The notes beneath the pieces are model-generated. The model ran no database searches, was not told the DNA's origin, and saw only the letters and a list, made by a program, of their open reading frames with translations. The translations under genes and the position numbers were made by a program. From the NCBI RefSeq assembly GCF_008710285.1, contig NZ_VYQF01000001.1, forward strand, positions 1,993,501 through 2,057,500: a stretch of DNA of 64,000 bases, read 5' to 3'. Positions 545-42,261 of this stretch are shown here, in pieces (position 1 is the first letter of the stretch; each line of letters opens with the position of its first letter). Origin of the DNA: Ginsengibacter hankyongi. GTDB lineage: Bacteria > Bacteroidota > Bacteroidia > Chitinophagales > Chitinophagaceae.

Positions 545-3500
545 ATGAGTGATAAAAAGTATTGGCAAAATTTTGAGGAGCTTAATCAAAACGAAGCTGA
601 GCAAAAGAAGTTGAAAAAAGAATTTAAAGAAGAGCTTCCTTTTGAAGATTTATCTAACGAGAATATTTTTAATGCCAAAACTCCACGTAGAGATTTTTTG
701 AAATACATGGGGTTTAGCACCGCTGCAGCAGCCCTTGCTGCAAGTTGTGAAATGCCCGTTCGAAAAGTGATTCCTTTTTTGCACAAGCCGGATGATATGA
801 TCCCGGGTATTTCAAATTATTACGCATCAACGTATATAAACGATGGAGATGCTGTTCCGGTTGTGGTTAAACAAAGAGAAGGCAGGCCAATTAAAATAGA
901 AGGAAATGATCTTTCATCACTTACTAATGGCGGAACCTCGGCACAATGCCAATCGTCAGTACTAGATTTATACGACACAACGCGCCTTCGCTATCCGCAG
1001 GCAAATGGGAAAGAAGCTACGTTTGAAGCAATAGATAAAATGTTAGCTGCAGGATTGACGGCTAATGCCGGAAAGCCGGTTGTACTATTAACCTCATCAA
1101 TTACTTCACCCTCCACCAAGCAAATTATTTCAGAATTTCTTGCAAAATATCCAGGGAGTCGCCATGTTCAATACGATGCTGTTTCTTACAGCGGGATGAT
1201 ATTGGCGAACGAGGCATCTTATGGTAAAAAAGCAATTCCTGCTTATCATTTTGAAAATGCAAAAGTAATTGTGAGTCTCGGTGCCGATTTCTTAACGACC
1301 TGGCTAAGTCCGGTAGTTTTTGCAAATCAGTATGCTCAGAATCGCAGAATAGATGAAGAGAAACCTTCGATGAGTAAGCATTTCCAGTTTGAGAGTCATT
1401 ATAGCATTACCGGGGCAAATGCGGATGAGCGCTATTTACATAAGCCATCTGAAACAGGTGCAGTTGCACTCGCGCTTCTAGGTGCACTAGGTGGCGGAAC
1501 TTCTTCTAATATTTCGGGGAAAGTTGCTGAAGGAATTAAAAAGGCTGCGGCGGAACTTTCTGCCAACAAAGGAGCCGCTCTTGTGGTTTGTGGAAGTAAC
1601 GACCCCAATATTCAAATAATTGTAAACGCAATAAATGAAGCCATAGGTGCGGGTGGTAAAACGATTGACTGGAACACCCCCGTTAACTATCGCCAGGGCA
1701 TAGACGCAGATGTGCTTGCACTTACTAACGATCTTAACGCAGGAAATGTAGGTGCGCTTTTAGTTTATGGCGCTAACCCAGCCTATAGCTTTTTTGCGGC
1801 AGATAAATTTATTGCTGGGGTAAAAAAATGCCCATTCACAGTTTCTTACAGCGAAAAAATGGATGAAACAACAGAACTGTGCAAATATATTGTTCCGTCT
1901 CATCACTGGCTGGAATGCTGGGGAGATGCAGAAATGCAAACAGGTTACGTAAGTGTAATTCAACCTATTATTCATCCATTATTTAAGACCCGCCAGTTTG
2001 AAAGCTCTCTTTTGAAACTTACGGGCAATGCAAATGATTACGAAGCTTATTTTAGAAATTATTGGATTACTAAATTAGGTAGCGTTGAGAATTTTGAAAA
2101 GTTTTTACAAGATGGGGTAATTGAAAATTCACAACTTAAAACACAATCAGCCTTCGTTAATGTTTCTGATTTAACTTCAGCAACTGCTGGTGTAACTTCT
2201 GCAGAAGAAGCTGATTCTGCTTCTCAAAAAATAAATCCTGCTGTGCCACTTCCGGTAATGTCAGGAGCCACATTTTCCGGCAACGTGGCCGATGCTGCAT
2301 CGAAAATTAGCAGCATTAAAGGAGGAGAAACTGAAATGGTTTTATATCAAAAGGTATCTATAGGAACAGGCAGCCGTGCAAATAATGCGTGGCTACAGGA
2401 AGTAAGTGACCCTATTTCGAAAGCCACCTGGGATAATTACGCAATGATATCCCCTCAAATGGGAAAGTCTCTGTTTGGTGTAGATATTTTTAACCGGAAT
2501 GATATGGACAAATATGAAGTCCACATTCAAAAGCCCATTATTAAAGTTACAGTTAATGGAAAAACAATAGAAATTCCGATCCTTATAATGCCTGGAATTC
2601 ATCCCAATGTAATTGCAATGGCTGTAGGATACGGAAGACAAAGTATTAATAAAGATAAAACGGCTGAATACATCGGGCCTGCTGCAAATGGTGTAGGAGT
2701 TAATGTATATCCGCTTGCTTATTATAATGGCACAACTGTTATTTATTCAGCCCCGGTGACTATTGAAAACACCGGTGATACTTATCCAATCGCTCAAACC
2801 CAGGTTCACCAAATTACTGAAGGAAGGCCCGTGGTAAGAGAAACAACTCTTGCAAATTTTATTGCAAGGCCCGGCGAAGTGCAGGAAGAAAGGGAAAAGG
2901 AGTTAAAAAAGTTCGGTGAAAGTTTTGAGCGTGATGGCACACTCTATCCTGTAATTGATAAGCCCGGAATTAAATGGGGGATGAGTATTGATCTTAATAC
3001 TTGTATTGGGTGCTCTGCATGTACGGTTGCGTGCGTTGCCGAAAATAATATTTCCACCGTAGGTAAATATGAAGTATCAAGATTTCATGACATGCAGTGG
3101 ATTCGCATTGATAGGTATTTTACAGGGGATCCGCAAAATCCTGACATCGTTTTTCAACCAATGACATGCCAGCAGTGCGACAATGCCCCTTGCGAGAATG
3201 TTTGCCCCGTATCTGCAACTAACCATAGCAGCGAGGGAATTAATCAAATGGTATATAACAGGTGTATTGGAACCAAATATTGCGCAAACAACTGCCCTTA
3301 TAAAGTTCGTCGTTTCAATTGGGCAGATTATAACGGAGCAGATAGTTTCCCTGATAACCAAAGAGGAATTATTTCTGATGCTACAACTGAGCTAAATGCA
3401 GATTTGGAAAGAATGGTACTCAATCCTGATGTAACCGTACGTTCAAGAGGGGTAATGGAAAAATGTAGTTTTTGTGTACAACGCTGCCAGGAAGGCAAAT

Positions 3501-3829: not shown

Positions 3830-5281
3830 ATGTCATTATTAAAATACGAATCCCAATTGAGGGAACCTTTGGTAGATGGAGATAAAGATTATCACCAGGT
3901 AACGGAAGATATCATTGGACCAATTGAAGCGAAGCCCGGCCGGCTTTGGTACATTGGGCTTTCTATTGCATTATGTCTTTTGCTTTTTGGGGTCTATTCT
4001 GTTTACCGGGAAGTAGTTTATGGTATTGGCCAATGGAATCTGAATCATACCATAGGATGGGGCTGGGATATCACCAACTTTGTATGGTGGATTGGTATCG
4101 GTCATGCGGGTACTTTAATTTCTGCAATTCTTCTATTGTTCAGGCAAGGTTGGAGAACCGGTGTGAACAGGGCTGCAGAAGCGATGACAATTTTTGCTGT
4201 TATGTGTGCGGGACAATTCCCGATATTTCACATGGGCCGGGTATGGGTTGGCTTTTATGTAATGCCTTATCCCAACAGTCGCGGACCTCTTTGGCCAAAT
4301 TTTAATTCAGCGTTATTGTGGGACGTATTTGCGGTATCCACTTACTTTACCGTTTCATTGTTGTTTTGGTATTCGGGTTTGTTGCCAGATTTAGCGACGG
4401 TGCGTGACAGGGCTAAAACCAAATTTAGAAAAATGTTTTATGGGCTGGCTTCTTTTGGGTGGACTGGAAGTACCAAGCACTGGCAGCGTCATGAAAGTCT
4501 TTCGCTTGTTTTAGCGGGTTTAGCCACACCCCTTGTATTATCAGTACATACGATAGTATCCATGGACTTCGCCACCTCGGTAATTCCTGGCTGGCATACA
4601 ACAATATTTCCTCCTTATTTTGTTGCGGGCGCAATTTTTTCAGGATTTGCAATGGTGCAATCACTATTAATTATTACCCGCAAAGTTTTACACTTGGAAG
4701 ATTATATAACGGTAGGGCATATTGAAGCCATGAATAAAGTAATTGTTCTTACAGGCTCTATTGTTGGTATCGCCTATTTAAGTGAATTGTTTATTGCGTG
4801 GTATAGCCAAAATCCATATGAATGGTGGGCTTTTCGGCAAAACCGGGTAAATATTTTCAGCCCGTATGGCTGGGCATATTATGGAATGATGTTTTGTAAT
4901 GTTGTATCACCTCAATTATTTTGGTCAAGGAAATTACGGAGAAATATAACTTTTACTTTCTTCATGGCGGTATTGGTAAATGTGGGAATGTGGTTTGAAA
5001 GGTTTGTAATTATAGTAACTTCAATTTACAGGGATTTTCTTCCTTCATCATGGAGTACTTATTATAGCCCTAGCATTTGGGAAGTTGGATTTTATCTTGG
5101 TACGTTCGGGCTGTTCTTTACGTGTTATTTTCTTTTTGCTAAATATTTTCCTGTAATTGCCGTTGCGGAAATTAAAGCGATTTTAAAAACCAGTGGAGAA
5201 AATTATAAAGTGAAAATGACACCAACCGAAAAAATGGATGCTGAAAAATTCTATATTGAAGAAGTAGAGCATGCGCATTAA
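3830..5281 (+). CDS. actC: ACIII membrane subunit ActC (NrfD/PsrC family)
   Basis: A 483-residue polytopic membrane protein of the NrfD/polysulfide reductase C family, with roughly ten hydrophobic helices, a charged N-terminus and a cytosolic-looking charged tail. In ACIII, ActC carries the quinol-binding site and contacts the Fe-S domain of ActB. Conserved-looking polar residues sit in helices near WWIGIGHAG and FPIFHMGRVWVG. It follows actB with 69 nt between them and precedes actD by 100 nt. ActF, further down, is a paralogue of this subunit. Confidence 0.93.
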   Translation: MSLLKYESQLREPLVDGDKDYHQVTEDIIGPIEAKPGRLWYIGLSIALCLLLFGVYSVYREVVYGIGQWNLNHTIGWGWDITNFVWWIGIGHAGTLISAILLLFRQGWRTGVNRAAEAMTIFAVMCAGQFPIFHMGRVWVGFYVMPYPNSRGPLWPNFNSALLWDVFAVSTYFTVSLLFWYSGLLPDLATVRDRAKTKFRKMFYGLASFGWTGSTKHWQRHESLSLVLAGLATPLVLSVHTIVSMDFATSVIPGWHTTIFPPYFVAGAIFSGFAMVQSLLIITRKVLHLEDYITVGHIEAMNKVIVLTGSIVGIAYLSELFIAWYSQNPYEWWAFRQNRVNIFSPYGWAYYGMMFCNVVSPQLFWSRKLRRNITFTFFMAVLVNVGMWFERFVIIVTSIYRDFLPSSWSTYYSPSIWEVGFYLGTFGLFFTCYFLFAKYFPVIAVAEIKAILKTSGENYKVKMTPTEKMDAEKFYIEEVEHAH

Positions 5282-5381: not shown

Positions 5382-5966
5382 ATGAGAAAAAAATTTGTAG
5401 TAGGTTGTTTCGATGATGAAAAAGTTCTATTTCCTGCAGTTAAGAATGTACGGAGAGCTGGCTATAAAATACACGACGTTTATACTCCATTTCCTGTTCA
5501 TGGGCTTGATCATGCCATGGGATTGAGAGAAACAAGTTTGCATACTGTAGGTTTCATTTTTGGATTGACCGGAACAAGTATTGCAATTGGAGGAATGGGA
5601 TGGATATTTACTACAGATTGGCCCTTGAATATTGGCGGTAAACCTCATTTTCCATTACCGGCATTCATTCCAATTACCTTTGAACTTACCGTATTACTTT
5701 CTGCAATAAGCATGGTATATACTTTTTGCTGGCTTTGCAAAATGATGCCCGGTGTTAAGAAACATCACTTTCATCCCAGGGCAACTGATGATCTTTTTGT
5801 GATGGTAATTGAATGTACTGCAAAAACGAATGAAACCGAAGTACAAAGTTTTTTGCAAAATAACGGCGCTATTGAAATAAATGTTCAGGAAGCCGAAGAT
5901 GGATGGTGGTTTGGTCGTTATGATAAAGAGCAAAAACTATACAGAACCGAAGAAGTTGGATATTAA
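5382..5966 (+). CDS. actD: ACIII subunit ActD (DUF3341)
   Basis: About 194 residues, DUF3341 family. It begins with a soluble ferredoxin-like fold (VVGCFDDEKVLFPAVKNVR), then two transmembrane helices (around HTVGFIFGLTGTSIAIGGMG and ITFELTVLLSAISMVYTFCW) and ends with a short soluble domain. ActD is a structural membrane subunit of ACIII with no cofactor. I start it at ATG 5382 rather than the in-frame TTG at 5367, because the residues after the ATG match the usual N-terminus and the purine-rich stretch before it suits initiation there. Confidence 0.9.
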   Translation: MRKKFVVGCFDDEKVLFPAVKNVRRAGYKIHDVYTPFPVHGLDHAMGLRETSLHTVGFIFGLTGTSIAIGGMGWIFTTDWPLNIGGKPHFPLPAFIPITFELTVLLSAISMVYTFCWLCKMMPGVKKHHFHPRATDDLFVMVIECTAKTNETEVQSFLQNNGAIEINVQEAEDGWWFGRYDKEQKLYRTEEVGY

Positions 5967-6041
5967 TGGATTTGTAAAAGAATGCAGAGCAGAAGTTTTT
6001 GGAAGTATAAATTAAAATTGATTGGATATTATTTTTGAAGT

Positions 6042-6677
6042 ATGAAAAAAATAAAAATTCTTATTGCTTTTTCTTTGATAGCAACATTAGTAATAATGTT
6101 TGAAAGCTGCGATAGCAAACGCGAACCGGGAAAAATATATATGCCGGATATGACTTACAGCCGAGCCTATGAAGCCTATGCACCTAATAGCCTAAAAGCG
6201 GAGAATATTAATTATATTCCGTATCCTGTTGAAGGTACCATAAGAAGGGGAGATTTATTTCCCTTTACGCTCCCTAAAGACTCGACAGGTTATGCAATGA
6301 GTAAAGATGTTAAAGACCCTCTGCCACCTCTTGATTCCGTACAAATGGGCGAAGCGCAAAGACTATTTAATATTAATTGTGCCATTTGCCATGGTCCTAA
6401 ATTAGATGCGCAAGGTCCGTTGGCTACCGGGGGGAAAGTACCCGCGGTTGCAAATTTAACATTGAAACAATATGTCGACATGCCTGTAGGAACAATGTTT
6501 TACTCGGTAACTTATGGGAAAAATAATATGGGAAGTTATGCCTCTCAATTAACCCGCGAGCAAAGATGGATGGTTATACAATATGTGAAATCACAACAGT
6601 TGAAAGGTAGTGAGTCTACAGATTCAACCAAAACGACAAGTGGAACAGTAAAGGATTCCCTAGCTGTAAAAAAATAA
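6042..6677 (+). CDS. actE: ACIII monohaem cytochrome c subunit ActE, lipoprotein
   Basis: A 211-residue protein with a lipoprotein signal peptide (cleavage expected before Cys in MFESCDS) and a single haem site, CAICH, at about residue 111. A methionine-rich segment after it (MPVGTMFYS, NNMGSYASQL) can supply the distal Met ligand. In ACIII, ActE is the membrane-anchored monohaem cytochrome that takes electrons from ActA and hands them to the terminal oxidase. The Ser/Thr-rich C-terminal tail (last 20 or so residues) looks like a flexible linker. It is 25 nt upstream of actF. Confidence 0.92.
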   Translation: MKKIKILIAFSLIATLVIMFESCDSKREPGKIYMPDMTYSRAYEAYAPNSLKAENINYIPYPVEGTIRRGDLFPFTLPKDSTGYAMSKDVKDPLPPLDSVQMGEAQRLFNINCAICHGPKLDAQGPLATGGKVPAVANLTLKQYVDMPVGTMFYSVTYGKNNMGSYASQLTREQRWMVIQYVKSQQLKGSESTDSTKTTSGTVKDSLAVKK

Positions 6678-6702: not shown

Positions 6703-7938
6703 ATGAACAATCAGTATGTAACACCGGCAATATATAAGAAGTTTTCAGTCGGATTTATGATTGCAGGATTGCTTACTTTAATTTTGGGAGTTATCTTTCT
6801 AAATCCCGGCGCCGGTTCAAACGGGGACAATTTAAATAGCACACGATTTTGGGCCGTACTGCTTCAAAACGGCTTGTTTTGGCTATTCCTGGTAAACACA
6901 GCAACCTTTTTTATGGTAATTTGTATACTTGCAATGTCAGGCTGGCAAGTAGCATTTCGGAGGGTAACGGAGGCTATATCTTCAGTAGTACCGCTAATGT
7001 CTATTCTTACATTATTAATTTTGTTTTGTATCGTGTTTGGTCATCGCGGCGATATTTATCCTTGGGTGAATAAAGACCTCGTAAGCCACGACGAAGTAAT
7101 CAAGGGGAAGTCAGGTTTTTTAAATCCTGGATTTTATTCTATCGCATCACTTTTATTTATAGGTATATGGTCATTGATCAGTAAGAAACTAAGAGATTTT
7201 AGCAAAGAAAGTGATAGCATCGGTACCATGGATTATGAAAAAGGTAAAAAATGGGTAAATAGAAATTTCTTTTGGGCAGCCGTTTATATTGTATCCTTTG
7301 GCCTATCGGTTGGTTCTACACTACCATGGCTTTGGATAATGAGTATCGACGCACATTGGTTTAGCACAATGTTTAGCTGGTATACATTTGGAAGTACCTT
7401 TGTTTCCGGCATGGCGCTTATTACAATATTTGTAATTTATTTTAAAAATCAAGGGCAGCTTCAGTTTGTAACTCAGGAACATTTGCAGGATCTCGGTAAA
7501 TATATATTTGCTTTTTCTATTTTATGGACTTACCTCTGGTTCGATCAGTTTATGCTTATCTGGTATGGAAACATACCGGAAGAAACGATCTATTTTAAAT
7601 CCAGGCTGCAGGGAACTTATGAAGGACTTTTTTATTTAAATCTCGTTTTAAACTTTTTATGCCCCTTCCTGATATTTATGAAGAGGGCACCCAAAAGGAA
7701 TTATACTGTTGTCACGTTTATGTGTATACTTATTATTTTTGGGCATTGGATAGATTTTTACCTTATGATTATGCCAGGAACGGTAAAAAATAATCCTCAC
7801 TTAAGCTGGTTTGAGTTTGGAATTCCTTTGGGTTTCATAGGTTTTATTATGTGGGGAGTAAGTCGTTTTGCATCAAAGATGCCAATGACGCCTGTCAATC
7901 ACCCATTTCTTAAAGAAAGTATTGTTCATCATACGTAA
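6703..7938 (+). CDS. actF: ACIII membrane subunit ActF (NrfD-like)
   Basis: A 411-residue polytopic protein, paralogous to ActC, with about ten hydrophobic helices. It is the last act gene and closes the canonical actABCDEF order. In solved ACIII complexes ActF packs against ActC in the membrane and is thought to help build a proton path; that role is family knowledge, not visible here. The charged loop near FSKESDSIGTMDYEKGKK separates the two helical halves. The stop codon is followed by about 140 nt containing the promoter-like site for the oxidase genes. Confidence 0.92.
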   Translation: MNNQYVTPAIYKKFSVGFMIAGLLTLILGVIFLNPGAGSNGDNLNSTRFWAVLLQNGLFWLFLVNTATFFMVICILAMSGWQVAFRRVTEAISSVVPLMSILTLLILFCIVFGHRGDIYPWVNKDLVSHDEVIKGKSGFLNPGFYSIASLLFIGIWSLISKKLRDFSKESDSIGTMDYEKGKKWVNRNFFWAAVYIVSFGLSVGSTLPWLWIMSIDAHWFSTMFSWYTFGSTFVSGMALITIFVIYFKNQGQLQFVTQEHLQDLGKYIFAFSILWTYLWFDQFMLIWYGNIPEETIYFKSRLQGTYEGLFYLNLVLNFLCPFLIFMKRAPKRNYTVVTFMCILIIFGHWIDFYLMIMPGTVKNNPHLSWFEFGIPLGFIGFIMWGVSRFASKMPMTPVNHPFLKESIVHHT

Positions 7939-9166: not shown

Positions 9167-10975
9167 ATGAACAACGACGAGGTTATACATGAGACACCGC
9201 TGGTAGTGCATGATCTGGGCCATGAGGCGCACACGCACCATCATAAAGAAACTTTTATTACAAAATATGTATTTAGCCAGGATCATAAAATGATCTCAAA
9301 GCAGTTTCTTATTACAGGAATAATCTGGGCTGTTATTGGAGGATTATTTTCTGTAATATTTCGCTTGCAATTGGGATATCCTGATCAAACATTTCCATTT
9401 CTTGAAGATATTTTAGGCCATTGGGGAAAAGGTGGTAAGATTGATCCTGAATTTTATTATGCACTGGTTACCATGCACGGAACCATTCTTGTATTTTTTG
9501 TGCTTACGGCTGGATTGAGTGGAACTTTTTCCAACTTTTTGATACCCTTGCAAGCGGGAGCAAGAGATATGGCTTCTCCTTTTTTGAATATGCTCTCCTA
9601 CTGGTTTTTCTTTTTATCATCTGTTATAATGTTTTCTTCCCTATTTGTTCAAACAGGTCCGGCAAGCGGGGGTTGGACTATATATCCACCTTTAAGTGCT
9701 TTGGGTGAGGCTTCAGATGGCGCGAAAATGGGGATGGATTTATGGCTTGCAAGTATTGCGATGTTTATAATTTCGGTACTCCTTGGTGGATTGAATTACA
9801 TTTCTACCATTTTGAATATGCGGACTAAAGGAATGAGTATGACCAGAATGCCTCTTACCATTTGGGCATTTTTCTTTACTGCTGTATTAGGAGTGTTATC
9901 ATTCCCTGTGTTATTGTCAGCCGTAGTATTATTGTTATTTGACCGTCATCTTGGAACCAGCTTTTACCTTAGCGATATCGTGATCAATGGAAAAATTCTT
10001 CCTAATCAGGGAGGAAGCCCTATTTTATTTCAACATTTATTTTGGTTTTTGGGCCACCCGGAAGTTTATATTATTGCCTTACCGGCTATGGGTATTACGT
10101 CTGAAGTAATATCGGTAAATTCAAGGAAACCAATATTTGGCTATATGGCAATGGTGGGTTCTTTTTTTGCAATTGCAAGCTTATCTTTCATGGTTTGGGC
10201 ACATCATATGTTTGTAACTGGAATGAATCCCTTCCTGGGCTCATTCTTTGTATTGCTTACTTTGCTTATAGCAGTACCTTCAGCCATAAAAGTATTCAAT
10301 TGGCTTACCACGTTGTGGAAAGGCAATATTCGCTTTACACCCGCTATGCTTTTTGCAATCGGTTTTGTGAGTTTATTTATTTCGGGGGGATTAACAGGGA
10401 TATGGCTGGGTAACTCGTCTCTTGATATTCATTTGCACGATACTTATTTTGTAATTGCGCATTTTCACCTTGTTATGGGAGTTGCTTCTATGTTTGGGAT
10501 GTTTGCCGGCATTTATCACTGGTATCCTAAAATGTATGGCAGATATATGAATAATACACTTGCCTACATCCATTTCTGGGTAACGATAGCCGGGGCTTAT
10601 TGTATATTCTGGCCTATGCATTACGAAGGATTAGCGGGTATGCCAAGACGTTATTATGATTTTAGCAACTGGGAATCATTTAAAATGTTTGGGGGGCTCA
10701 ACGAATTTATAAGCGTAGTTGCCATGATAGTTTTTTCCGTTCAGCTATTGTTTATTTTTAATTTCTTCTATTCGATATTTAAAGGCAGAAAAGTTACTAC
10801 CACGAATCCATGGGGCGCTAATACTTTGGAATGGACCACACCTATTAGGCCTGGACATGGAAATTGGCCTGGTGAAATTCCGGAAGTTCATCGCTGGGCT
10901 TATGATTATGGAAAAGATGGAAGAGATTTTATTCCGCAGACAGAACCTGTGGGAGCAGATGAACAGCGACATTAA
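9167..10975 (+). CDS. coxA: Cytochrome c oxidase subunit I
   Basis: 602 residues, about twelve transmembrane helices. The haem-copper core is clear: HPEVY, the His-Tyr cross-link and CuB site; WAHHMFVTGM with two further CuB histidines; and HFHLVMG with the ligands of the high- and low-spin haems. It reduces O2 to water and pumps protons. The His-rich N-terminal tail (HEAHTHHHKE) is common in Bacteroidota homologues. A strong terminator hairpin follows 49 nt after the stop. Confidence 0.97.
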   Translation: MNNDEVIHETPLVVHDLGHEAHTHHHKETFITKYVFSQDHKMISKQFLITGIIWAVIGGLFSVIFRLQLGYPDQTFPFLEDILGHWGKGGKIDPEFYYALVTMHGTILVFFVLTAGLSGTFSNFLIPLQAGARDMASPFLNMLSYWFFFLSSVIMFSSLFVQTGPASGGWTIYPPLSALGEASDGAKMGMDLWLASIAMFIISVLLGGLNYISTILNMRTKGMSMTRMPLTIWAFFFTAVLGVLSFPVLLSAVVLLLFDRHLGTSFYLSDIVINGKILPNQGGSPILFQHLFWFLGHPEVYIIALPAMGITSEVISVNSRKPIFGYMAMVGSFFAIASLSFMVWAHHMFVTGMNPFLGSFFVLLTLLIAVPSAIKVFNWLTTLWKGNIRFTPAMLFAIGFVSLFISGGLTGIWLGNSSLDIHLHDTYFVIAHFHLVMGVASMFGMFAGIYHWYPKMYGRYMNNTLAYIHFWVTIAGAYCIFWPMHYEGLAGMPRRYYDFSNWESFKMFGGLNEFISVVAMIVFSVQLLFIFNFFYSIFKGRKVTTTNPWGANTLEWTTPIRPGHGNWPGEIPEVHRWAYDYGKDGRDFIPQTEPVGADEQRH

Positions 10976-20694: not shown

Positions 20695-20733
20695 AAGATA
20701 AAAATTTTCGCCCCTTTGAAAGTGGTCCTAAAT

Positions 20734-20771
20734 AAAAAGGCCTGTAAAAAAATTTTTTTACAGGCCTTTTT
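20734..20771. terminator. 38-bp palindromic bidirectional terminator (original terminator of the tRNA-like gene)
   Basis: A perfect palindrome with 19-nt arms, core AAAAAGGCCTGT/ACAGGCCTTTTT, A-rich on the left and T-rich on the right, so it can work on both strands. On the plus strand it ends the receiver gene. It directly abuts attL; before the element inserted it would have stood right after the 3' end of the minus-strand RNA gene now at 41951-42124. Confidence 0.8.
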
Positions 20772-20785
20772 AGCTGTAGGGGGAG
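20772..20785 (+). repeat. attL core repeat
   Basis: A 14-bp copy of the repeat also found at 41949-41962. Beyond the identical core, GAACCT recurs at the same offset (20791-20796 and 41968-41973), so the element carries a partial copy of the T-arm next to the crossover region. Confidence 0.85.
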
Positions 20786-20954: not shown

Positions 20955-22241
20955 ATGCCTCGTCACCCCGAAGTTCATTTCCGATTAAAGGCAAAAAATA
21001 AAAAGGGAGATTGCGCTATATACCTTCAATTCATATATAACCGTAATCGTTTATTTTTTTCTTTTGGGCAAAGTGTAAATTTTGATGATTGGAATTTCAA
21101 TAAGGAAAGAATAAAGAAAAAGGATAAGACAACATTAGAGGGTAAATTTTTTTTAAATGATCTTTTAGAACGATTACAAAATTTATGTCTTACCTCTTAC
21201 CATGAATCTATGAAAGATGGGATACCAAATCCGGCTTATATAAAAACAAGGCTAAAAAATTTAATTAATCAAAATAGGACTGAAGCTGATCCTGAAAAAT
21301 CAGACTTTTTTTTGCTGGCTGATAGATTTATTAGAGGTGAAATCAAAAATCGCGGGAAAGATAAAAGCATATCAAGTCTGCAGAACTATCACGCTGTAAC
21401 AAAGCATTTAAAGAATTTTCAAAAAGCGACAAAATATTCAATAACTTTTGAAAACATCAATCTTGATTTTTTTTACAAGTACACCACTTATCTAAAGGAT
21501 ACTCTCGGCTTATCGCCTAACACAATAGCAAAAGATATTTCTATTATTAAGGTTTTTATGGGAGAGGCTGTTGATTTGCGATATACGACGAATAATGAGT
21601 TCAGGCATAAAAAATTTTCATATAGCGAAATAGAGACGGATGCTGTCTATGTAACCGAAAAAGAGTTGGAAATACTTTACAAGTTTGATTTTTCAAAAAC
21701 CAAAAGGCTGGAAAATGTAAGGGATTTGTTCGTTTTTGGTGCGTGGGTAGGACTTAGATTTTCTGATTTTTCGAACATAATGCCGGAAAATATTATTGAA
21801 ATTGATAGTGAATATTTCATCAAAATTGTTACTCAAAAGACAAAAGAGCTTGTTATCATTCCTTGTCACCCTATTGTCCTGGACATTTTTGAAAAATATA
21901 AGCATAATCCCAATAAACTTCCGAACACAATAAGTAATCAGAAATTTAATGATTACATAAAAGACGTTTTCAAAGCTGCAGGATTTAATGAAAAAGGACG
22001 CCTGGCAAATGACATCAATTTAGAGCTATGGCAGTGTGTTAGCAGCCATACAGCAAGAAGATCCTTTGCAACAAATTACTATCTGCAAGGTTTCCCGGTA
22101 ATTGATTTAATGAAAATTACTGGCCATAAGACTGAGAAGGCTTTTATGAAATATATCCGCATTTCCAAACTCGATGCTGCGAAAAGATTAAGCTCTCACA
22201 TGAAAAAAATGTGGAGTGAAAAAATGCTGAGAGTAGCTTAG
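20955..22241 (+). CDS. Tyrosine-type site-specific recombinase (integrase)
   Basis: 428 residues: N-terminal arm-binding domain (to about 90), SAM-like core-binding domain (about 105-215), and catalytic domain. Catalytic residues are visible: the first Arg in WVGLRFSDFS, HTARRSF giving His and the second Arg, TGHKTEKAF with the third His position, and the nucleophile Tyr in FMKYI. It belongs to the family common in Bacteroidota conjugative and mobilizable elements. It lies 170 nt inside attL and reads inward. The paired 12-bp repeats stand between it and the core site. Confidence 0.95.
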   Translation: MPRHPEVHFRLKAKNKKGDCAIYLQFIYNRNRLFFSFGQSVNFDDWNFNKERIKKKDKTTLEGKFFLNDLLERLQNLCLTSYHESMKDGIPNPAYIKTRLKNLINQNRTEADPEKSDFFLLADRFIRGEIKNRGKDKSISSLQNYHAVTKHLKNFQKATKYSITFENINLDFFYKYTTYLKDTLGLSPNTIAKDISIIKVFMGEAVDLRYTTNNEFRHKKFSYSEIETDAVYVTEKELEILYKFDFSKTKRLENVRDLFVFGAWVGLRFSDFSNIMPENIIEIDSEYFIKIVTQKTKELVIIPCHPIVLDIFEKYKHNPNKLPNTISNQKFNDYIKDVFKAAGFNEKGRLANDINLELWQCVSSHTARRSFATNYYLQGFPVIDLMKITGHKTEKAFMKYIRISKLDAAKRLSSHMKKMWSEKMLRVA

Positions 22242-23121: not shown

Positions 23122-24057
23122 TTAGAGATGTATTCGTTTTGATTTTTTCTTTCTCTTTTGTTGTAACCTCCATTCAGCTGCTAACGATTGATCTTGTTGT
23201 TCCGGCTTTATTAATTCATTAAGGATATTCAGATCCTTGTTCAACCGCTTGTCTATTTCCAAGTCTTTGTTTTGAGAAATGCTTTTTGAATACAATGAAT
23301 CTGCCGGTAATTTTATTAATCTCTCCGCTTGCTGCTGCTGTAATATTTTCTGAAGATTATTTATGGAAAACTTTCTATCTACCTCACTGCCCTTATATTT
23401 ATACTCTCCCAACTTAAAATTGATACCCTGTAGCTCGTTTGTTTGCCCTTTGTATTTGTATAATGTTTCAATCTTTTTTTTCACCAGCTTTTCCGTTAAA
23501 TCATTTAAGGTTCTGCATTGTGGGAGACTTTCCAAAATAGCCTGGTAAATGATATAACGGTTCGCTTCCTTTTCATTTAATGCGTTCAGATTTACAAGTG
23601 ATAAATCTTTTGAGATCGCTTCTTTTAATCCATATTTTTTTGTGAGTTTCTGCGCAACCTTTTTTCCTTTTAACCCGATCCAGTTATCCTTGATCGTTTC
23701 TCCATTATTGTTCACAAGATTGGCAAGAATGTGCAGGTGAGAATGATTTTTATCAATGTGCTTTACAATCGCAAATTGCGTGTCTGTAATCTTGATTTCA
23801 GCCAGGTATTCTCGGGCGATTTTAGCCATCATTTTATCTTCAATTCTTTCTCCGGGATAAAAGCTGATGATGCCATGAAAGACTGCCTTTGTAAGAGATG
23901 GTCTCATCGACTGCTGCAATTCAAAATCTTTAGCCATGAGTTTATAATCATAATCCCTTACACCATCTGCTTCCAAAACCACCGCTCTTCTTTTATCCAT
24001 GCATATATACCTGCATGCTCCGTAAAATGTTTTTCCTATGACCACTTTACTAATCAT
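23122..24057 (-). CDS. Relaxase/mobilization nuclease (MOBP type)
   Basis: 311 residues, relaxase family PF03432. The metal-binding motif HIDKNHSHLHILANLV fits the HxDxxxxHxHxxxN pattern; the N-terminal tyrosine in TFYGACRYICMD is the likely strand-transfer residue. It would nick the element at oriT and lead the strand into a recipient with help from a foreign conjugation system. It overlaps the MobC-like gene by 8 nt, showing translational coupling. The C-terminal about 100 residues are charged and variable. Confidence 0.92.
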   Translation of the reverse strand: MISKVVIGKTFYGACRYICMDKRRAVVLEADGVRDYDYKLMAKDFELQQSMRPSLTKAVFHGIISFYPGERIEDKMMAKIAREYLAEIKITDTQFAIVKHIDKNHSHLHILANLVNNNGETIKDNWIGLKGKKVAQKLTKKYGLKEAISKDLSLVNLNALNEKEANRYIIYQAILESLPQCRTLNDLTEKLVKKKIETLYKYKGQTNELQGINFKLGEYKYKGSEVDRKFSINNLQKILQQQQAERLIKLPADSLYSKSISQNKDLEIDKRLNKDLNILNELIKPEQQDQSLAAEWRLQQKRKKKSKRIHL

Positions 24058-32754: not shown

Positions 32755-35700
32755 ATGAGAAAGCAAATACTGTTTTTGATCTTTTTTCAGGCAATTGCTG
32801 GTTATTTAACAGCGCAAAGTAATATACCTACTACGACTACCGGTCCGGCATCTGCCACTCCAAATGCATTACCTTCTTATAATCCTGCCCCATCTGCCTC
32901 ATATTTGCGAACACTCGTGCCCGTTATGCCTACAACCGATTCGGCAAGGGTAACTATAAATGCATGGGCAGACACGGTAAATATTACAACACAATATTTC
33001 GACTCTTTAAGCAGACCATTGCAAACGGTTATTAAACAAGCCTCACCCGCAAAAAATGATTATGTTTCCCCGAATACTTATGACGAATTTGGAAGGGTAG
33101 TTAATAGCTATTTACCTTACGTGCAAACAATAGGAAATAATAACAACGGGCAGTTTAAATCCACCCAATTTGTTTATGATTCTACTTTTTATAAAACGAA
33201 TTTCCCTTCAGAGCAGATCAATTACAGCCAGGCAACATATGATGCAACTCCATTACAAAGAGCGCTAAAAACAACCGCGCCAGGCAATAGCTGGACGGGA
33301 GCCAACGTTGGCATTAGCAATACCTGGAGAGCCAATGTGACGTCGGACAGCGTAAGGCTTTGGACGATTGCCATCAGCAATGAAGATGATGTTCCCGCAA
33401 CTGCAATAGCTTATTCAGCCGGAAGCTTATCTGTAACTGAGACGACCGATGAAAGGGGTGTAAAAACGGTAACCTATAGAGATGAAATGGGTAGAACAAT
33501 TCTTACCAAACAACAAGCGAGCGCCTCTCCAACGACCGGGCATTACGGTTGGTTGTGTACTTATTATGTTTATGATGAAATGAACCACTTGCGGGTGGTA
33601 ATTCCTCCAAAAGCAGTGGATGCATTAAATACCTCCACCGTTAACTGGAATCTGTCAGGTGTTCCTACCATAAAAACAGGGTTGTGCTTTTCTTATTTCT
33701 ACGATGCAAGAGGAAGAGTTATCATGAAATATATCCCCGGTAAAGGGAAAAATTATATTGCCTATGATTTGTTTGATAGGGTAGTAATGACACAGGATCC
33801 AAACCTGCGGCAAACTAACCAATGGGCTTTTGTAAAATACGATGGACAAAGCAGGCCTTTCAGATCGGGCGTTATTACCAGTGCGCTGACTAAAGACAGT
33901 ATTATTGCGCAGGCTGCAAGAGCTAACGATTATCCCACACTCACCGGAACCTACACTATAACATCCGAAACCTATTTTGATGACTATAGCTGGATAACAG
34001 GCGGAGCACCCAATAGCAGTTTGGTGTCAACTTATATAAATAGCACCAATTTTAATACTAGCTATAATACTTACCCTGATTATGCGCAACCGATAACCGT
34101 TAGTAGCCGGATAAGGGGTGCCGTAACGGGCAGTAAAAGAATAATCCTTAATACCTCAACGTATTTATATACTGTACCGTTGTATGATGATCATGGAAGA
34201 GTAATTCAAATGAAAGAAACCAACTATACCGGCGGCACTGATGTACTTACCAAACAATACCGCTTTAACGGAGCCGTATTACGGACCCACCTTTACCAGC
34301 AGAAATCGGGTACTAACGCTCAAACACATACGCTGTTAACCAAATACACCTTTGACCACGTTGGCAGAATAAAAACCATTGTTAAAAATATTGATGGCTT
34401 AGGAGATAAAACCATTGCCACCAACACATACAATGAACTTGGCCAGTTGAAATCAAAAGTGCTGGGAAGCGGTATTGATTCGTTGGCTTACGCTTACAAT
34501 ATAAGAGGCTGGCTCACCGGTATCAATAAGGGCTTTGTAGATACTTTTAATAGTGCGACGAATTATTTTGGGGAAGATCTTTTTTACGATTTTGGATTTA
34601 CCAATAGCCAGCTTAATGGCGCCATTGCCGGAGTAAAATGGAAAGCTGGCGGCGATACCATAGCACGGGCTTACGGCTTTAGTTATGATAATGCCAACCG
34701 GCTTACCAAGGCAGATTTTAGCCAGAATATTAGAAATACAACCACCTGGACAAATTCGAGTGTAGACTATACCGTTAGTAATCTTACTTACGATGGTGGG
34801 GGCAATATCCTCACTATGAGACAAAGAGGGTTATTGATAGGAAGTTCCACAACAATTGATTCACTTGCCTATACTTATACTGCCAACAGTAACCAGTTGC
34901 AGAAAGTGGGTGATGGGATAGCAGATGCAAGCCCGATGGGAGATTTTAAAGACTCTTCGCTTACAACCGATTATACTTATGATGTTAATGGCAACATTAC
35001 TAAGGACTATAACCGCCACATGCATACTACAGCCAATGGCAATGGCGATGTGTATAATTTATTAGACAAGCCTGATTCCATGGTTATTGCAAACAAAGCA
35101 ACATTATATTATTATTACGATGCAGCGGGAACAAAATTACGTAAGCAGGTAAATGATTATACTACCGGCAAAACACTTAACTATCTTTACCTCGATGGTT
35201 TTGTTTATTTGAACGATACCCTGCAATATGTAAACACAGAAGAAGGAAGAATACGATGGGCTAAGAAAAGAAATAATACAAATGGCACTATTTATTATGC
35301 TTTTGAATATGATTATTATTTAAGAGACCATTTGGGTAATGTGCGAACGGTTCTTACTGAAGGAAAAGATACGGCAACGTATGCAGCTACCATGGAAACT
35401 GCGGATAGCGCTACAGTTGAAGCGTTGTTTAGCAATGTTTATGACCCCGTAAGGACGGTATCACCAAAACCCTCAGCATTCGATAGCGATCCTAACAATC
35501 ATTATGTAAGCAAGCTTACAGGCACGACAGGGGGGCGAATCGGGCCTTCCATTATTTTAAAAGTGATGGCGGGTGATAAAGTGCAGATTAGTACTTACGC
35601 GTATTATACAGGGGCAACACAATCACCTGTAACAGATAATACTTTAGTCACGGATCTGCTTTCCACATTAGTAAGCGGGATTACCAATCAAAGTGGAGGT

Positions 35701-36894
35701 AAAATAGGAAGTGGAAATTCCACGGCATTAAGTAATACGGTTAGCCCAAATGTATTATCGTTTTTAGGGACCCGCTCTTATAATTCATCATTACCAAAAG
35801 CTTATCTTAACTGGGTTTTATTAGATGATCAGTTTAGATATGTAGCCGGCAGCATGGGAGCTTTACAGGTTCAGGCGGGCAGTGCTAAACAGGCGTTGGC
35901 ACCATCTTTACAAACTATGGCAAAGAATGGATACCTCTATGTGTACGTAAGTAACCAAAGCCCGCAGGATGTATATTTTGATGATCTTATTGTAACACAT
36001 ACAACTGGCCCATTGTTGCAAGAACAAAGTTATTATCCTTTTGGATTGCAAATGGCAGGTATAAGTGATAAAGCCTTAAATAAATTGGATAGTAAAAATA
36101 AATTTAATGGAGGAGTGGAATTGGAAGAAGACTATGGAGTAAATTTGTATGCGACTTTTTACAGAGAGTATGATCCGCAGATTGGGCGGTTTACAGGAAT
36201 AGATGCATTATCTGAGATGTCTTCTAATGTTACATCTTATCAATATGCAAATAATGATCCTATAAGGTTTAATGACCCAAGTGGATTGCTTTCAACTCAA
36301 GACAATCCGGAAACATTAGAAGCAGTGATTATAGCAATGCCTTCTACAGCATCGGCTGGAATTAGCTTTGCTGTTTGGGATGCTTTGATGTCGCAATTTG
36401 GAGACGGTAGTTTCTATGCTGGATTTGGAGGAGGTGGAGGAGGAGGTGGAGGAGGAGGTGGTGGTGGTGGATGGAGAAATAGGGTAGCAAAGAAACTTGC
36501 AAACACGTATAAACAAAATGAGCGACGTATAATGGCTTATTCCTTAACGATGGAAGCTTTAGCTGAGGTGACAAGTGCCGGCGAACTTCTCACAAAAACA
36601 AGGGACGCATTGGTTGAAACGTATGGAGATGATGATTCCAAAGAGGCAAGTGAAGTATATAGCCAAGTTATTGACTTAGTAAGAGGGATAAAGGAAGACG
36701 TAGCAGGTGGCGAATTGACTGATAGCTATATCGCAATTGCATCGGCCGCTTTTGGTGCCAAGGCAATTACGTTGGGAGCTGAGGACGCTGCATTGATGGA
36801 AACCATAAAAATGTTAGATGGAGATGTTTATCACAGTTTAAATCCGGACACGGATTATCGCGGTGGTGGGGGCGGGGCGGACTCTTCATATTAA
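32755..36894 (+). CDS. RHS repeat protein with polyglycine hinge and unique C-terminal tip
   Basis: 1379 residues with a signal peptide (MRKQILFLIFFQAIAGYLTA). The start after it resembles DUF6443 (AWADTVNITTQYFDSLSRPL). Many YD repeats follow (YDEFGRVV, YDARGRVIMKY, YDVNGNITKDY). The RHS-associated core lies around residues 1094-1180 (YYPFGLQMAG, FYREYDPQIGRFTGID, YQYANNDPIRFNDPSGL). After the core, 15 consecutive Gly (nt 36427-36471) lead to about 140 helical residues without known similarity. In polymorphic toxins the part after the core is the toxic tip; here no nuclease or other catalytic motif is seen, so a toxin role is open. The next gene is LemA-like, not a typical immunity gene. Confidence 0.88.
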   Translation: MRKQILFLIFFQAIAGYLTAQSNIPTTTTGPASATPNALPSYNPAPSASYLRTLVPVMPTTDSARVTINAWADTVNITTQYFDSLSRPLQTVIKQASPAKNDYVSPNTYDEFGRVVNSYLPYVQTIGNNNNGQFKSTQFVYDSTFYKTNFPSEQINYSQATYDATPLQRALKTTAPGNSWTGANVGISNTWRANVTSDSVRLWTIAISNEDDVPATAIAYSAGSLSVTETTDERGVKTVTYRDEMGRTILTKQQASASPTTGHYGWLCTYYVYDEMNHLRVVIPPKAVDALNTSTVNWNLSGVPTIKTGLCFSYFYDARGRVIMKYIPGKGKNYIAYDLFDRVVMTQDPNLRQTNQWAFVKYDGQSRPFRSGVITSALTKDSIIAQAARANDYPTLTGTYTITSETYFDDYSWITGGAPNSSLVSTYINSTNFNTSYNTYPDYAQPITVSSRIRGAVTGSKRIILNTSTYLYTVPLYDDHGRVIQMKETNYTGGTDVLTKQYRFNGAVLRTHLYQQKSGTNAQTHTLLTKYTFDHVGRIKTIVKNIDGLGDKTIATNTYNELGQLKSKVLGSGIDSLAYAYNIRGWLTGINKGFVDTFNSATNYFGEDLFYDFGFTNSQLNGAIAGVKWKAGGDTIARAYGFSYDNANRLTKADFSQNIRNTTTWTNSSVDYTVSNLTYDGGGNILTMRQRGLLIGSSTTIDSLAYTYTANSNQLQKVGDGIADASPMGDFKDSSLTTDYTYDVNGNITKDYNRHMHTTANGNGDVYNLLDKPDSMVIANKATLYYYYDAAGTKLRKQVNDYTTGKTLNYLYLDGFVYLNDTLQYVNTEEGRIRWAKKRNNTNGTIYYAFEYDYYLRDHLGNVRTVLTEGKDTATYAATMETADSATVEALFSNVYDPVRTVSPKPSAFDSDPNNHYVSKLTGTTGGRIGPSIILKVMAGDKVQISTYAYYTGATQSPVTDNTLVTDLLSTLVSGITNQSGGKIGSGNSTALSNTVSPNVLSFLGTRSYNSSLPKAYLNWVLLDDQFRYVAGSMGALQVQAGSAKQALAPSLQTMAKNGYLYVYVSNQSPQDVYFDDLIVTHTTGPLLQEQSYYPFGLQMAGISDKALNKLDSKNKFNGGVELEEDYGVNLYATFYREYDPQIGRFTGIDALSEMSSNVTSYQYANNDPIRFNDPSGLLSTQDNPETLEAVIIAMPSTASAGISFAVWDALMSQFGDGSFYAGFGGGGGGGGGGGGGGGWRNRVAKKLANTYKQNERRIMAYSLTMEALAEVTSAGELLTKTRDALVETYGDDDSKEASEVYSQVIDLVRGIKEDVAGGELTDSYIAIASAAFGAKAITLGAEDAALMETIKMLDGDVYHSLNPDTDYRGGGGGADSSY

Positions 36895-41900: not shown

Positions 41901-41942
41901 AAAAAAGCCGTTAAAATATTGATTTATAATATGTTAACGGCT
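41901..41942 (-). terminator. Element-borne replacement terminator for the tRNA-like gene
   Basis: Read on the minus strand, AGCCGTTAA (41942-41934) pairs with TTAACGGCT (41914-41906), with further inner A/T pairing, and is followed by six T (41906-41901) and then GTTTTT. It stands just after the 3' end of the RNA gene at 41951-42124, but inside the integrated element. Confidence 0.8.
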
Positions 41943-41948
41943 AAATAG

Positions 41949-41962
41949 AGCTGTAGGGGGAG
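41949..41962 (+). repeat. attR core repeat
   Basis: A 14-bp copy identical to 20772-20785. It covers the discriminator base, the 3' acceptor strand and four bases of the T-stem of the minus-strand RNA gene, a usual place for tyrosine-recombinase crossover. Confidence 0.85.
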
Positions 41963-42124
41963 GGATCGAACCTCCACGAGGCAGTTAGCTATAGCACAAA
42001 GTTCAGTGGTCGACCCTGGTCGCATTCCAATTTGCATTGGAACACGGCTCTATGCTACGTTTATCCTGTTATCCTCACCCCCGAGACAAGAGGGCATGTC
42101 TGCCAAAAATTTCATCACCCCACA
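41951..42124 (-). tRNA. Class II tRNA-like RNA with a giant (~100 nt) structured variable arm
   Basis: Read on the minus strand: acceptor TGTGGGG (42124-42118) pairs with CCCTACA (41958-41952), one G-T pair, discriminator G (41951). T8 follows, then a D-arm with stem ATG/CAT and loop containing TTGGCAGA, as in tRNA-Leu types. The anticodon arm is CCCTC, loop TTGTCTC, GGGGG, with T33 present and GTC at the anticodon place, but T instead of a purine at position 37. The T-arm is GGAGG, TTCGATC, CCTCC, perfect. Between them the variable arm closes with GAGG/CCTC, then CAG/CTG, TAGC-ATAG/CTAT-A-GCTA, and inner hairpins TTCCAAT-GCAA-ATTGGAA and CGAC-CAGG-GTCG. CCA is not encoded. I recognise no known tRNA isotype. 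It may be a specialised tRNA, a tRNA-like regulatory RNA, or a tRNA gene with an insertion. Confidence 0.6.
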
Positions 42125-42145
42125 ATTTTTAAGAACTTTATAATG

Positions 42146-42153
42146 CAAATCTA
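42146..42153 (-). promoter_or_regulatory. -7 promoter element TAGATTTG for the tRNA-like gene
   Basis: A perfect TAnnTTTG match on the minus strand, 21 nt before the 5' acceptor strand, giving a short leader of about 15-18 nt as usual for tRNA genes. It supports real transcription of this RNA. Confidence 0.55.
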
Positions 42154-42261
42154 ATATAGTGAGCTTATTTAAAAAAATATTTTAAATAAAATCTAATAAA
42201 TATAGAAATAATTCAATAAAATGTTTATTTTTATAAAATATTTTTAAAATAAAAAACCAAT

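Follow-up and report, generated by a model that had tools for sequence, protein, structure and literature searches.

Bacteria such as Bdellovibrio, Deinococcus and Thermus make asparagine on a transfer RNA (tRNA), using a non-discriminating aspartyl-tRNA synthetase (AspRS) and the amidotransferase GatCAB on an RNA with U1-A72 and G73, and they keep GatCAB beside asparaginyl- and glutaminyl-tRNA synthetases (AsnRS and GlnRS), a combination reported for 68 of 547 surveyed genera (PMC4206432). In Escherichia coli, the regulator AsnC activates asnA, the gene for asparagine synthetase A, an effect blocked by asparagine, and was once thought to control only asnA and asnC (PMC4482635). Here we describe a tRNA-like RNA encoded on the minus strand of a 64,000-nucleotide (nt) stretch of the Ginsengibacter hankyongi genome (Chitinophagaceae; assembly GCF_008710285.1, contig NZ_VYQF01000001.1, positions 1,993,501 to 2,057,500), the whole of which is called the window. 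The RNA belongs to a real, conserved family with a covarying variable-arm domain, and we lean modestly towards regarding it as a dedicated carrier, not used in decoding, on which aspartate is converted to asparagine under the control of an AsnC-type regulator.

The locus resembles each of several described systems in part. As in the Bdellovibrio, Deinococcus and Thermus pathway, U1-A72, G73 and the retention of GatCAB beside AsnRS and GlnRS are present, but here the amino acid would be loaded onto an RNA that is distinct from tRNA(Asn), apparently does not decode and has an aspartate triplet, so that an ordinary discriminating AspRS might suffice; the long arm domain and the divergent AsnC-type regulator are further differences. 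As in E. coli, an AsnC-type regulator is paired, apparently gene-specifically, with what would be an asparagine-supply gene, although the adjoining gene is an RNA and not asparagine synthetase A. The selenocysteine tRNA, on which serine is converted to selenocysteine, and other class II tRNAs likewise have a long variable arm; the arm here is several times longer and contains a three-way junction, and the RNA has no UCA triplet and apparently no codon use. Transfer-messenger RNA (tmRNA) shares the tRNA-like ends and a large insert, and YrlA and other bacterial Y RNAs are noncoding tRNA mimics that carry a tRNA-like module. In Rfam the window gave no match at gathering score and four chance-level matches at a relaxed threshold, so a known RNA family was rejected; a tmRNA, the family that the initial annotation had named as a possible known match, was rejected because there is no match to RF00023, the RNA has an anticodon-type arm, and the genome's own tmRNA sits elsewhere.

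All parts of a class II tRNA that the initial annotation had listed (acceptor, U8, Leu-type D-loop, 5-bp anticodon-type stem and T arm) are present in the window copy (Table 1), and C74 is genome-encoded at 41950, directly 3' of the RNA. The variable arm, described there as about 100 nt and folding by itself, begins with stems of 4 and 3 bp, which are followed by a conserved internal loop (GAUAAAC/GCUAAC), a 10-bp stem and a three-way junction; of the two hairpins at the junction, one is variable and the other has a U[UC]GA loop. The helices of the arm covary in homologues. The minimum-energy fold of the window RNA (-61.9 kcal/mol, z -2.2, equalled by 8 of 200 shuffles) recovers the acceptor, the T arm and the variable-arm helices and neither the D arm nor the canonical anticodon stem-loop; since folding of a single sequence is weak evidence, the decision rests on the comparison of homologues. 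By a simple two-half score, the closest tRNA within the same genome is tRNA-Leu.

Homologues were sought in 195 Chitinophagaceae genomes from 101 genera, 167 of them rated good. A DNA search found matches in 136 genomes, and a covariance model (R1) built from an alignment of 41 diverse copies (A1) placed the RNA, at E <= 1e-14, in 134 of the 195 genomes, 116 of the 167 good genomes and 72 of the 101 genera. Among the 41 homologues, 97.1% of cells were paired in the named structure, which was written by hand from the window copy and is hence biased towards it, compared with 43.3-54.2% when the 3' partners were slid by 1-3 columns. The initial annotation had proposed a search for compensatory changes, and these exist: 18 of 47 pairs had changed on both sides (13.9 in shuffles), the covariation score was 0.283 versus 0.132, and the variable-arm helices (4 to 9) supplied 16 of the 18 pairs, out of 26 pairs there. 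The D stem is invariant in 101 Chitinophagaceae copies and varies in paired fashion in 43 of 45 copies from other families (GUG/CAC in 14, ACG/CGU in 11, UUG/CAA in 11, AUG/CAU in 7, and UCG/CGU with one mismatch in 2).

Six further families of the phylum also hold homologues, as judged with R1 on a 395-genome phylum sample in which membership was counted only at about 79 bits or more (family labels f1, f2, f3, f8, f9, f10 and f48, f1 being Chitinophagaceae to judge from named loci). Weak matches (about 50 bits, 85 nt) were set aside as ordinary tRNA-Leu by length and score, and because R1 weakly matches such apparent tRNA-Leu genes the scan's tally of 240 of 395 was not used as a count of carriers. 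The bacterial copies inspected span 110 to 201 nt and differ chiefly in the variable arm; short paralogues, in Chitinophagaceae 119-134 nt long, have no junction domain, and some families often have tandem copies, up to three at loci L128 and L129. Locus L108 holds two partial tandem copies (976-1043 and 1294-1361) with variable arm and T arm and no 5' half, which are broken in the T loop after GGTTCGA and resemble integration scars. The relative at L141 (3001-3078) is compact, 78 nt in length, and has no long arm; its loop is CUAUCUC, ARAGORN calls it tRNA-Asp(atc), and no AsnC gene was found within 3 kb of it.

ARAGORN called no tRNA anywhere in the window, and across about 220 fetched loci it called one tRNA-Met and, within the family, only the 78-nt member at L141, with no long copy. 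The initial annotation knew of no such family, and among the top-listed open-licence papers no title or abstract opening described one, subscription papers being mostly outside that scope. ARAGORN calls a second tRNA-Asp(gtc) in the window's genome (L253, G000:C1:1504241-1504314), with an odd loop, CUGUCUAA.

Signals of a gene surround the RNA. The promoter element noted at the outset is there (TAGATTTG), and TAnn[AT]TTG, which we take to be the -7-type promoter consensus, occurs in 77 of 101 upstream regions, against a mean of 10.7 in single-base shuffles. GTTCTT, presumably a boxA, lies within 50 nt upstream in 58 of 101 regions (mean of 1.9 in single-base shuffles). By eye, a hairpin and T run follow many copies. 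The RNA ends in G73-C74, in the style of 37 of the 40 distinct tRNA genes found in its genome, which stop after an encoded C, short of a complete CCA; the other three encode CCA. A stretch close to TTTTTCTCATGTGATTG recurs just after the RNA and before the terminator in different genera (L012, L013, L021, L022, L040, L042, L043, L064 and others).

The anticodon-type loop was compared in 146 bacterial copies, 101 distinct ones from Chitinophagaceae and 45 others (43 distinct). Positions 35, 36 and 38 are U, C and C in all 146, and position 34 is G in 143, C in two and U in one; the C34/U34 copies (L126, L127 and L133), which share the same divergent AsnC, have glutamate triplets and all other copies aspartate triplets. 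Position 33 is U in 96 copies, C in 40, A in 7 and G in 3, so the T33 of the initial annotation stands for the window copy and does not extend, as a conserved feature, to the family. Elongator tRNAs usually have a purine at position 37; here it is U in 135 copies, C in 7, G in 4 and A in none, a pyrimidine in 142 of 146. The early remark that the loop is odd for a decoding tRNA is thus upheld. The family retains a cloverleaf with the conserved D/T elbow nucleotides, lacks a consistent U33 and a purine at 37, and is not recognised by tRNA finders or the Rfam tRNA model. On these comparisons the RNA looks non-decoding; since the window copy itself has U33, the argument for it rests on U37, the arm and the family.

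Aspartate identity in bacteria is given by G73, G10, G34, U35, C36 and C38 (PMC9976931), and the family keeps this set apart from G10, with the exceptions at position 34 noted above. U1, A72, G73 and C74 are present in 101/101 Chitinophagaceae, 45/45 other bacterial and 68/68 distinct viral copies. U1-A72 lets GatCAB amidate Asp-tRNA(Asn), and G1-C72 together with U20a blocks amidation of tRNA(Asp) (PMC9976931, PMC4206432). The tRNA-Asp of the same genome has G1-C72 and its tRNA-Asn has U1-A72; the RNA thus unites an aspartate loop with an asparagine-type end, and its first pair is that of a GatCAB substrate for asparagine. Serine identity was considered for the window copy and rejected (G73, G2-C71, R4-Y69 and a large variable region are present; C72, C11-G24 and G30-C40 are not), as were leucine and tyrosine identity, G73 being an antideterminant for the leucyl- and tyrosyl-tRNA synthetases in E. 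coli.

Genomes with the RNA are very largely those with gatB, which was matched in 135 of the 195 Chitinophagaceae genomes, 132 of them over cut-off. Both were found in 130 genomes, the RNA only in 4, gatB only in 5 and neither in 56 (115, 1, 3 and 48, respectively, in the 167 good genomes; Fisher p 7e-38 and 5e-37, kinship ignored). The 130 of 134 RNA carriers with gatB include the window's genome, whose gatB encodes a full GatB. The RNA-only genomes are G078, G112, G120 and G183, the last three 63-78% complete, and gatB alone was found in G037, G054, G076, G126 and G128, with pieces of the RNA detected by DNA search in G037 and G126. The five genomes with AsnC and no trace of the RNA (G028, G030, G123, G124 and G189) all lack gatB. 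Within genus g11, G010 has RNA, AsnC and gatB while G110 and G181 have none of the three; within g23, G022 and G119 have all three and G189 has AsnC without RNA and gatB. For the other enzymes only over-cut-off matches were used, since the any-match tallies (asnS 195, glnS 191 and asnB 195 of 195) include cross-hits to related enzymes: asnS was found in 180 genomes, with the RNA in 9 of the 15 others, glnS in 181 and asnB in 165. With asnS and glnS near-universal, gatB has no obvious tRNA in need of GatCAB in most of these genomes.

The regulator divergent from the RNA has AsnC as its best NCBIfam family (165.6 bits, next 66.1) and E. coli AsnC (2cg4) as its best PDB match. Among 87 Chitinophagaceae loci, 83 have such a gene in divergent orientation to the RNA, typically at a distance of about 150 bp; the other four are short contig-end stretches (L010, L011 and L016) or have AsnC on another contig (L078). 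Loci were fetched from 29 genomes of other families, and in 19 of these genomes AsnC lies beside the RNA. Across the 195 genomes, both were found in 131, the RNA only in 3, AsnC only in 7 and neither in 54. AsnC is by a wide margin foremost among the recurrent neighbours (107 loci); the others include a permease (31) and TrmB (22), and most of the neighbours are unannotated. In a scan anchored on AsnC instead, R1 matched at 69 of the best 80 of 585 loci, two of the matches being partial; of the remainder, one has an RNA start at the contig end, three end before the RNA site and seven have no RNA, so that the RNA is present at 70 of the 77 testable loci among the best 80. The titles of these loci name Chitinophagaceae, Bacteroidetes, Sphingobacteriales, one Flavobacterium metagenome-assembled genome and one 'uncultured bacterium'; cultured carriers of the RNA include Niastella soli, Paraflavitalea pollutisoli and Segetibacter koreensis. 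Between RNA and AsnC, a motif search of 79 regions (best site each) found an operator-like element scoring 35.9 bits, compared with 6.7-7.9 in five shuffled sets that used the same seed. In the window its second half-site is degenerate. A looser pattern, with three mismatches allowed, matched in six of ten genomes, each time solely at the RNA-AsnC locus.

The comparisons establish the RNA family, its structure and conserved identity nucleotides, its pairing with AsnC, the operator-like element and the co-occurrence with gatB. From them we infer how the RNA may be transcribed, controlled by AsnC, charged, amidated and kept from the ribosome, and what may become of the asparagine. The RNA would be transcribed from its own promoter under the divergent AsnC-type regulator and then trimmed like a tRNA. 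AspRS would recognise the G34-U35-C36-C38 loop and G73 and load aspartate, and GatCAB would recognise the U1-A72 end and amidate the aspartate to asparagine. A version that decoded would, given the aspartate anticodon, insert asparagine where the codons call for aspartate; the RNA may be kept off the ribosome by its large arm, by the pyrimidine at 37 and by the lack of a conserved U33. Asparagine would be released, most likely by hydrolysis feeding AsnRS, or handed to another acceptor. Low asparagine would lead AsnC to turn the RNA on, in the way that asparagine synthetase A is controlled in E. coli. A joint role of the RNA with AspRS and GatCAB, as substrate or as scaffold, is probable. More tentatively, and short of what we would call likely, the family may consist of non-decoding tRNAs for amino-acid biosynthesis, RNA cofactors of AspRS and GatCAB with asparagine-sensing control, carried also by phages that would profit from control over the asparagine supply of the host, with the rare C34/U34 variants making glutamine through glutamyl-tRNA synthetase and GatCAB.

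Several observations weigh against the RNA as a site of asparagine synthesis. To our knowledge there is no use of RNA-bound asparagine, and the model leaves the role of the variable-arm domain unexplained and does not predict that phages carry the RNA. A10 replaces the aspartate determinant G10 in 101/101 Chitinophagaceae copies, the window's included (G10 is present in 14 of 45 copies from other families), three of the 146 bacterial copies have C34 or U34, and U1-A72 deviates from G1-C72, a pair described as strictly conserved among bacterial tRNA(Asp) species (PMC9976931). The co-occurrence counts are uncorrected for phylogeny and concern gatB as the sole GatCAB subunit searched; gatB retention could also come from a non-discriminating AspRS that works on ordinary tRNA(Asn). 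A link to asnB was tried and rejected, the RNA being present in 21 of the 30 genomes below the asnB cut-off, about the base rate of 134/195. The AsnC match, at 165.6 bits, is under the NCBIfam equivalog cut-off of 227, and 10 of 29 other-family genomes have no adjacent AsnC, including all five of f2 and the weak relative at L141. The looser operator pattern had no match in four of the ten genomes, among them the window's own, whose copy is too degenerate, and the sensitivity of the pattern is therefore limited.

The same identity nucleotides and gatB co-occurrence would also fit an RNA that carries no amino acid and instead serves as scaffold or cofactor of an AspRS-GatCAB complex making asparagine on ordinary tRNA(Asn), with the aspartate loop docking AspRS and the U1-A72 end docking GatCAB. 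The tRNA-Asn of the genome has U1-A72, and AspRS, tRNA and amidotransferase do form asparagine transamidosomes (PMC9976931, PMC7373986). We consider this rather unlikely: a scaffold has no obvious need for an invariant discriminator and a tRNA-type 3' end, and AsnRS is over cut-off in nearly all of the genomes, as counted above. An uncharged regulatory RNA or protein decoy under AsnC, whose tRNA shape would serve processing or stability and whose exposed GUCUC loop or variable-arm domain would bind a target, is a comparably unlikely account. The large conserved domain with invariant internal-loop bases, the unkept U33 and the many viral contigs with the RNA, which would suit an RNA for host takeover, speak for a decoy, but the retention of gatB almost exactly where the RNA occurs, the invariance of U1-A72 and G73, and the restriction of the triplets to aspartate or glutamate anticodons would then be unexplained. 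By the same charging logic as in asparagine synthesis, the charged Asn-RNA (or Asp-RNA) might be a donor for non-ribosomal transfer, for example to peptide, wall or lipid. Non-decoding aminoacyl-tRNA donors are known in other systems and give this a precedent, yet no transferase was recognised among the recurrent, mostly unannotated neighbours, and we think it improbable. Less credible still is an unusual Asp-type tRNA that decodes despite its oversized variable arm: the cloverleaf is complete and C74 is encoded as in most tRNA genes of the genome, but a decoding tRNA-Asp was rejected because U33 is missing in 50 of 146 copies, position 37 is almost always a pyrimidine and never A, and the genome has a normal tRNA-Asp. 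A chance fold, pseudogene or intron-interrupted tRNA, which the merely modest advantage of the single fold over shuffles would allow, is contradicted by the covariation and can practically be dismissed, the compensatory changes, promoter-like elements and upkeep in 72 of 101 genera bearing out the initial annotation's view that this is a gene.

The RNA also occurs on viral contigs. Two exact patterns, one fixing the loop and not the acceptor, the other fixing the 3' acceptor strand and neither U1 nor the loop, match 37 and 72 IMG/VR contigs, respectively, 99 together. Of 136 viral R1 matches, the counts use the 89 that are untruncated and reach at least 69 bits, which lie on 89 contigs and comprise 68 distinct sequences; L285 is truncated, and the rest scored lower, several being ordinary phage tRNAs. 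The loop is GTC[TC]C in 68/68 distinct viral copies, in the first-pattern set by selection. Among the 37 first-pattern contigs, tRNA genes lie on 14 and tmRNA on 8, and the few contigs checked for virus genes include L270 (portal and terminase) and L278 (DNA polymerase and helicases). Phage records yielded nothing relevant by DNA similarity to the window's own RNA; queried with viral copies, they gave one 636-kb record (LR756504.1) matched by two queries, with the copy inside a tRNA cluster, and no match for two other queries. Fourteen phage records have gatB, none of them named as a Bacteroidota phage.

Further peculiarities were seen. Some copies, at L053 and at viral loci including L283, L305 and L330, have extra D-loop sequence, apparently hairpins, besides the long variable arm. 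At L272, L276, L280, L283, L291, L293, L295 and L297, a tmRNA gene, unusual tag peptides and tRNA arrays stand beside the RNA. Phage contigs also carry other oversized tRNA-like RNAs, 121 to 164 nt long, whose ends are UAGUCAGG/CCUGACUA-C and whose loop places them outside the family (L273 at 4342-4505, 4587-4707 and 9979-10113; L298 at 3169-3299; L300 at 5950-6100), and a further kind of 139 to 146 nt that starts approximately with CAAGGAG and ends in CUCCUUGA-C or CUCUUUGA-C (L278 at 7213-7351; L351 at 4516-4661). Viral tRNAs at L354, L329, L358 (77 nt), L350 and L316 have the acceptor UGUAGGG/CCCUACA-G and GUU (Asn) loops; those of 77 nt combine C38 with a pyrimidine or G at 37, and may form a short Asn-type branch.

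In the window, the stretch from 20772 to 41949, downstream of the RNA, looks like an integrative and probably mobilisable element. It is bounded by two copies of CTCCCCCTACAGCT, one at the 3' end of the RNA and the other near a tyrosine integrase, in agreement with the initial annotation, which held that an integrase treats this end as that of a tRNA. The element looks to have used the RNA gene as others use tRNA genes, with the 3' end restored. A strong terminator-like hairpin follows the second copy, and the initial annotation's remark on an original terminator is borne out. Besides the relaxase, the element contains a DnaG-like primase, a large protein that by eye looks like an Rhs/YD protein (32755-36894), a DUF3644 protein and a DDE transposase; given the 21.2-kb insert, the Rhs-like, DUF3644 and transposase genes downstream of the RNA belong to the insert.

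Table 1. Features of the tRNA-like RNA locus and the adjoining element, in window positions
Feature	Position	Strand	Basis or family
tRNA-like RNA, nucleotides 1 to 73, 174 nt	41951..42124	-	sequence and homologues
Acceptor 5' strand UGUGGGG, U1 paired with A72	42118..42124	-	
D arm AUG/CAU, Leu-type, enlarged loop with GG	42096..42115	-	
Anticodon-type stem-loop CCCUC-UUGUCUC-GGGGG	42078..42094 (loop 42083-42089)	-	
Variable arm, 99 nt	41978..42076	-	
T arm GGAGG-UUCGAUC-CCUCC	41959..41975	-	
Acceptor 3' strand CCCUACA and discriminator G73	41951..41958	-	
boxA-like GTTCTT, in leader	42131..42136	-	
-7-type promoter element TAGATTTG	42146..42153	-	
Operator-like element, 50 bp, two TTGAA half-sites 31 bp apart	42171..42220	.	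motif search
Divergent AsnC-type regulator, 158 aa	42262..42738	+	
Attachment repeat CTCCCCCTACAGCT, 14 nt, at RNA 3' end	41949..41962	-	
Terminator-like hairpin CCGTTAA/TTAACGG and T run, inside insert	41901..41940	-	
MobA-type relaxase	23122..24057	-	PF03432
Tyrosine integrase	20955..22241	+	PF00589, PF13102, PF17293
Second CTCCCCCTACAGCT copy, degenerate T arm before it	20772..20785	-	
Likely native terminator of RNA gene, now 21.2 kb off	20733..20771	-	

In the descriptions so far, tRNA-dependent asparagine synthesis takes place on tRNA(Asn), the molecule that goes on to decode. If the asparagine reading is true, an additional RNA that combines an aspartate loop with an asparagine end would serve as a metabolic RNA cofactor uncoupled from the code, and it would explain why GatCAB is retained in bacteria that have both AsnRS and GlnRS. 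The finding raises the question of why phages carry the RNA, and for one bacterial group it would offer a testable answer to the puzzle of GatCAB retention.

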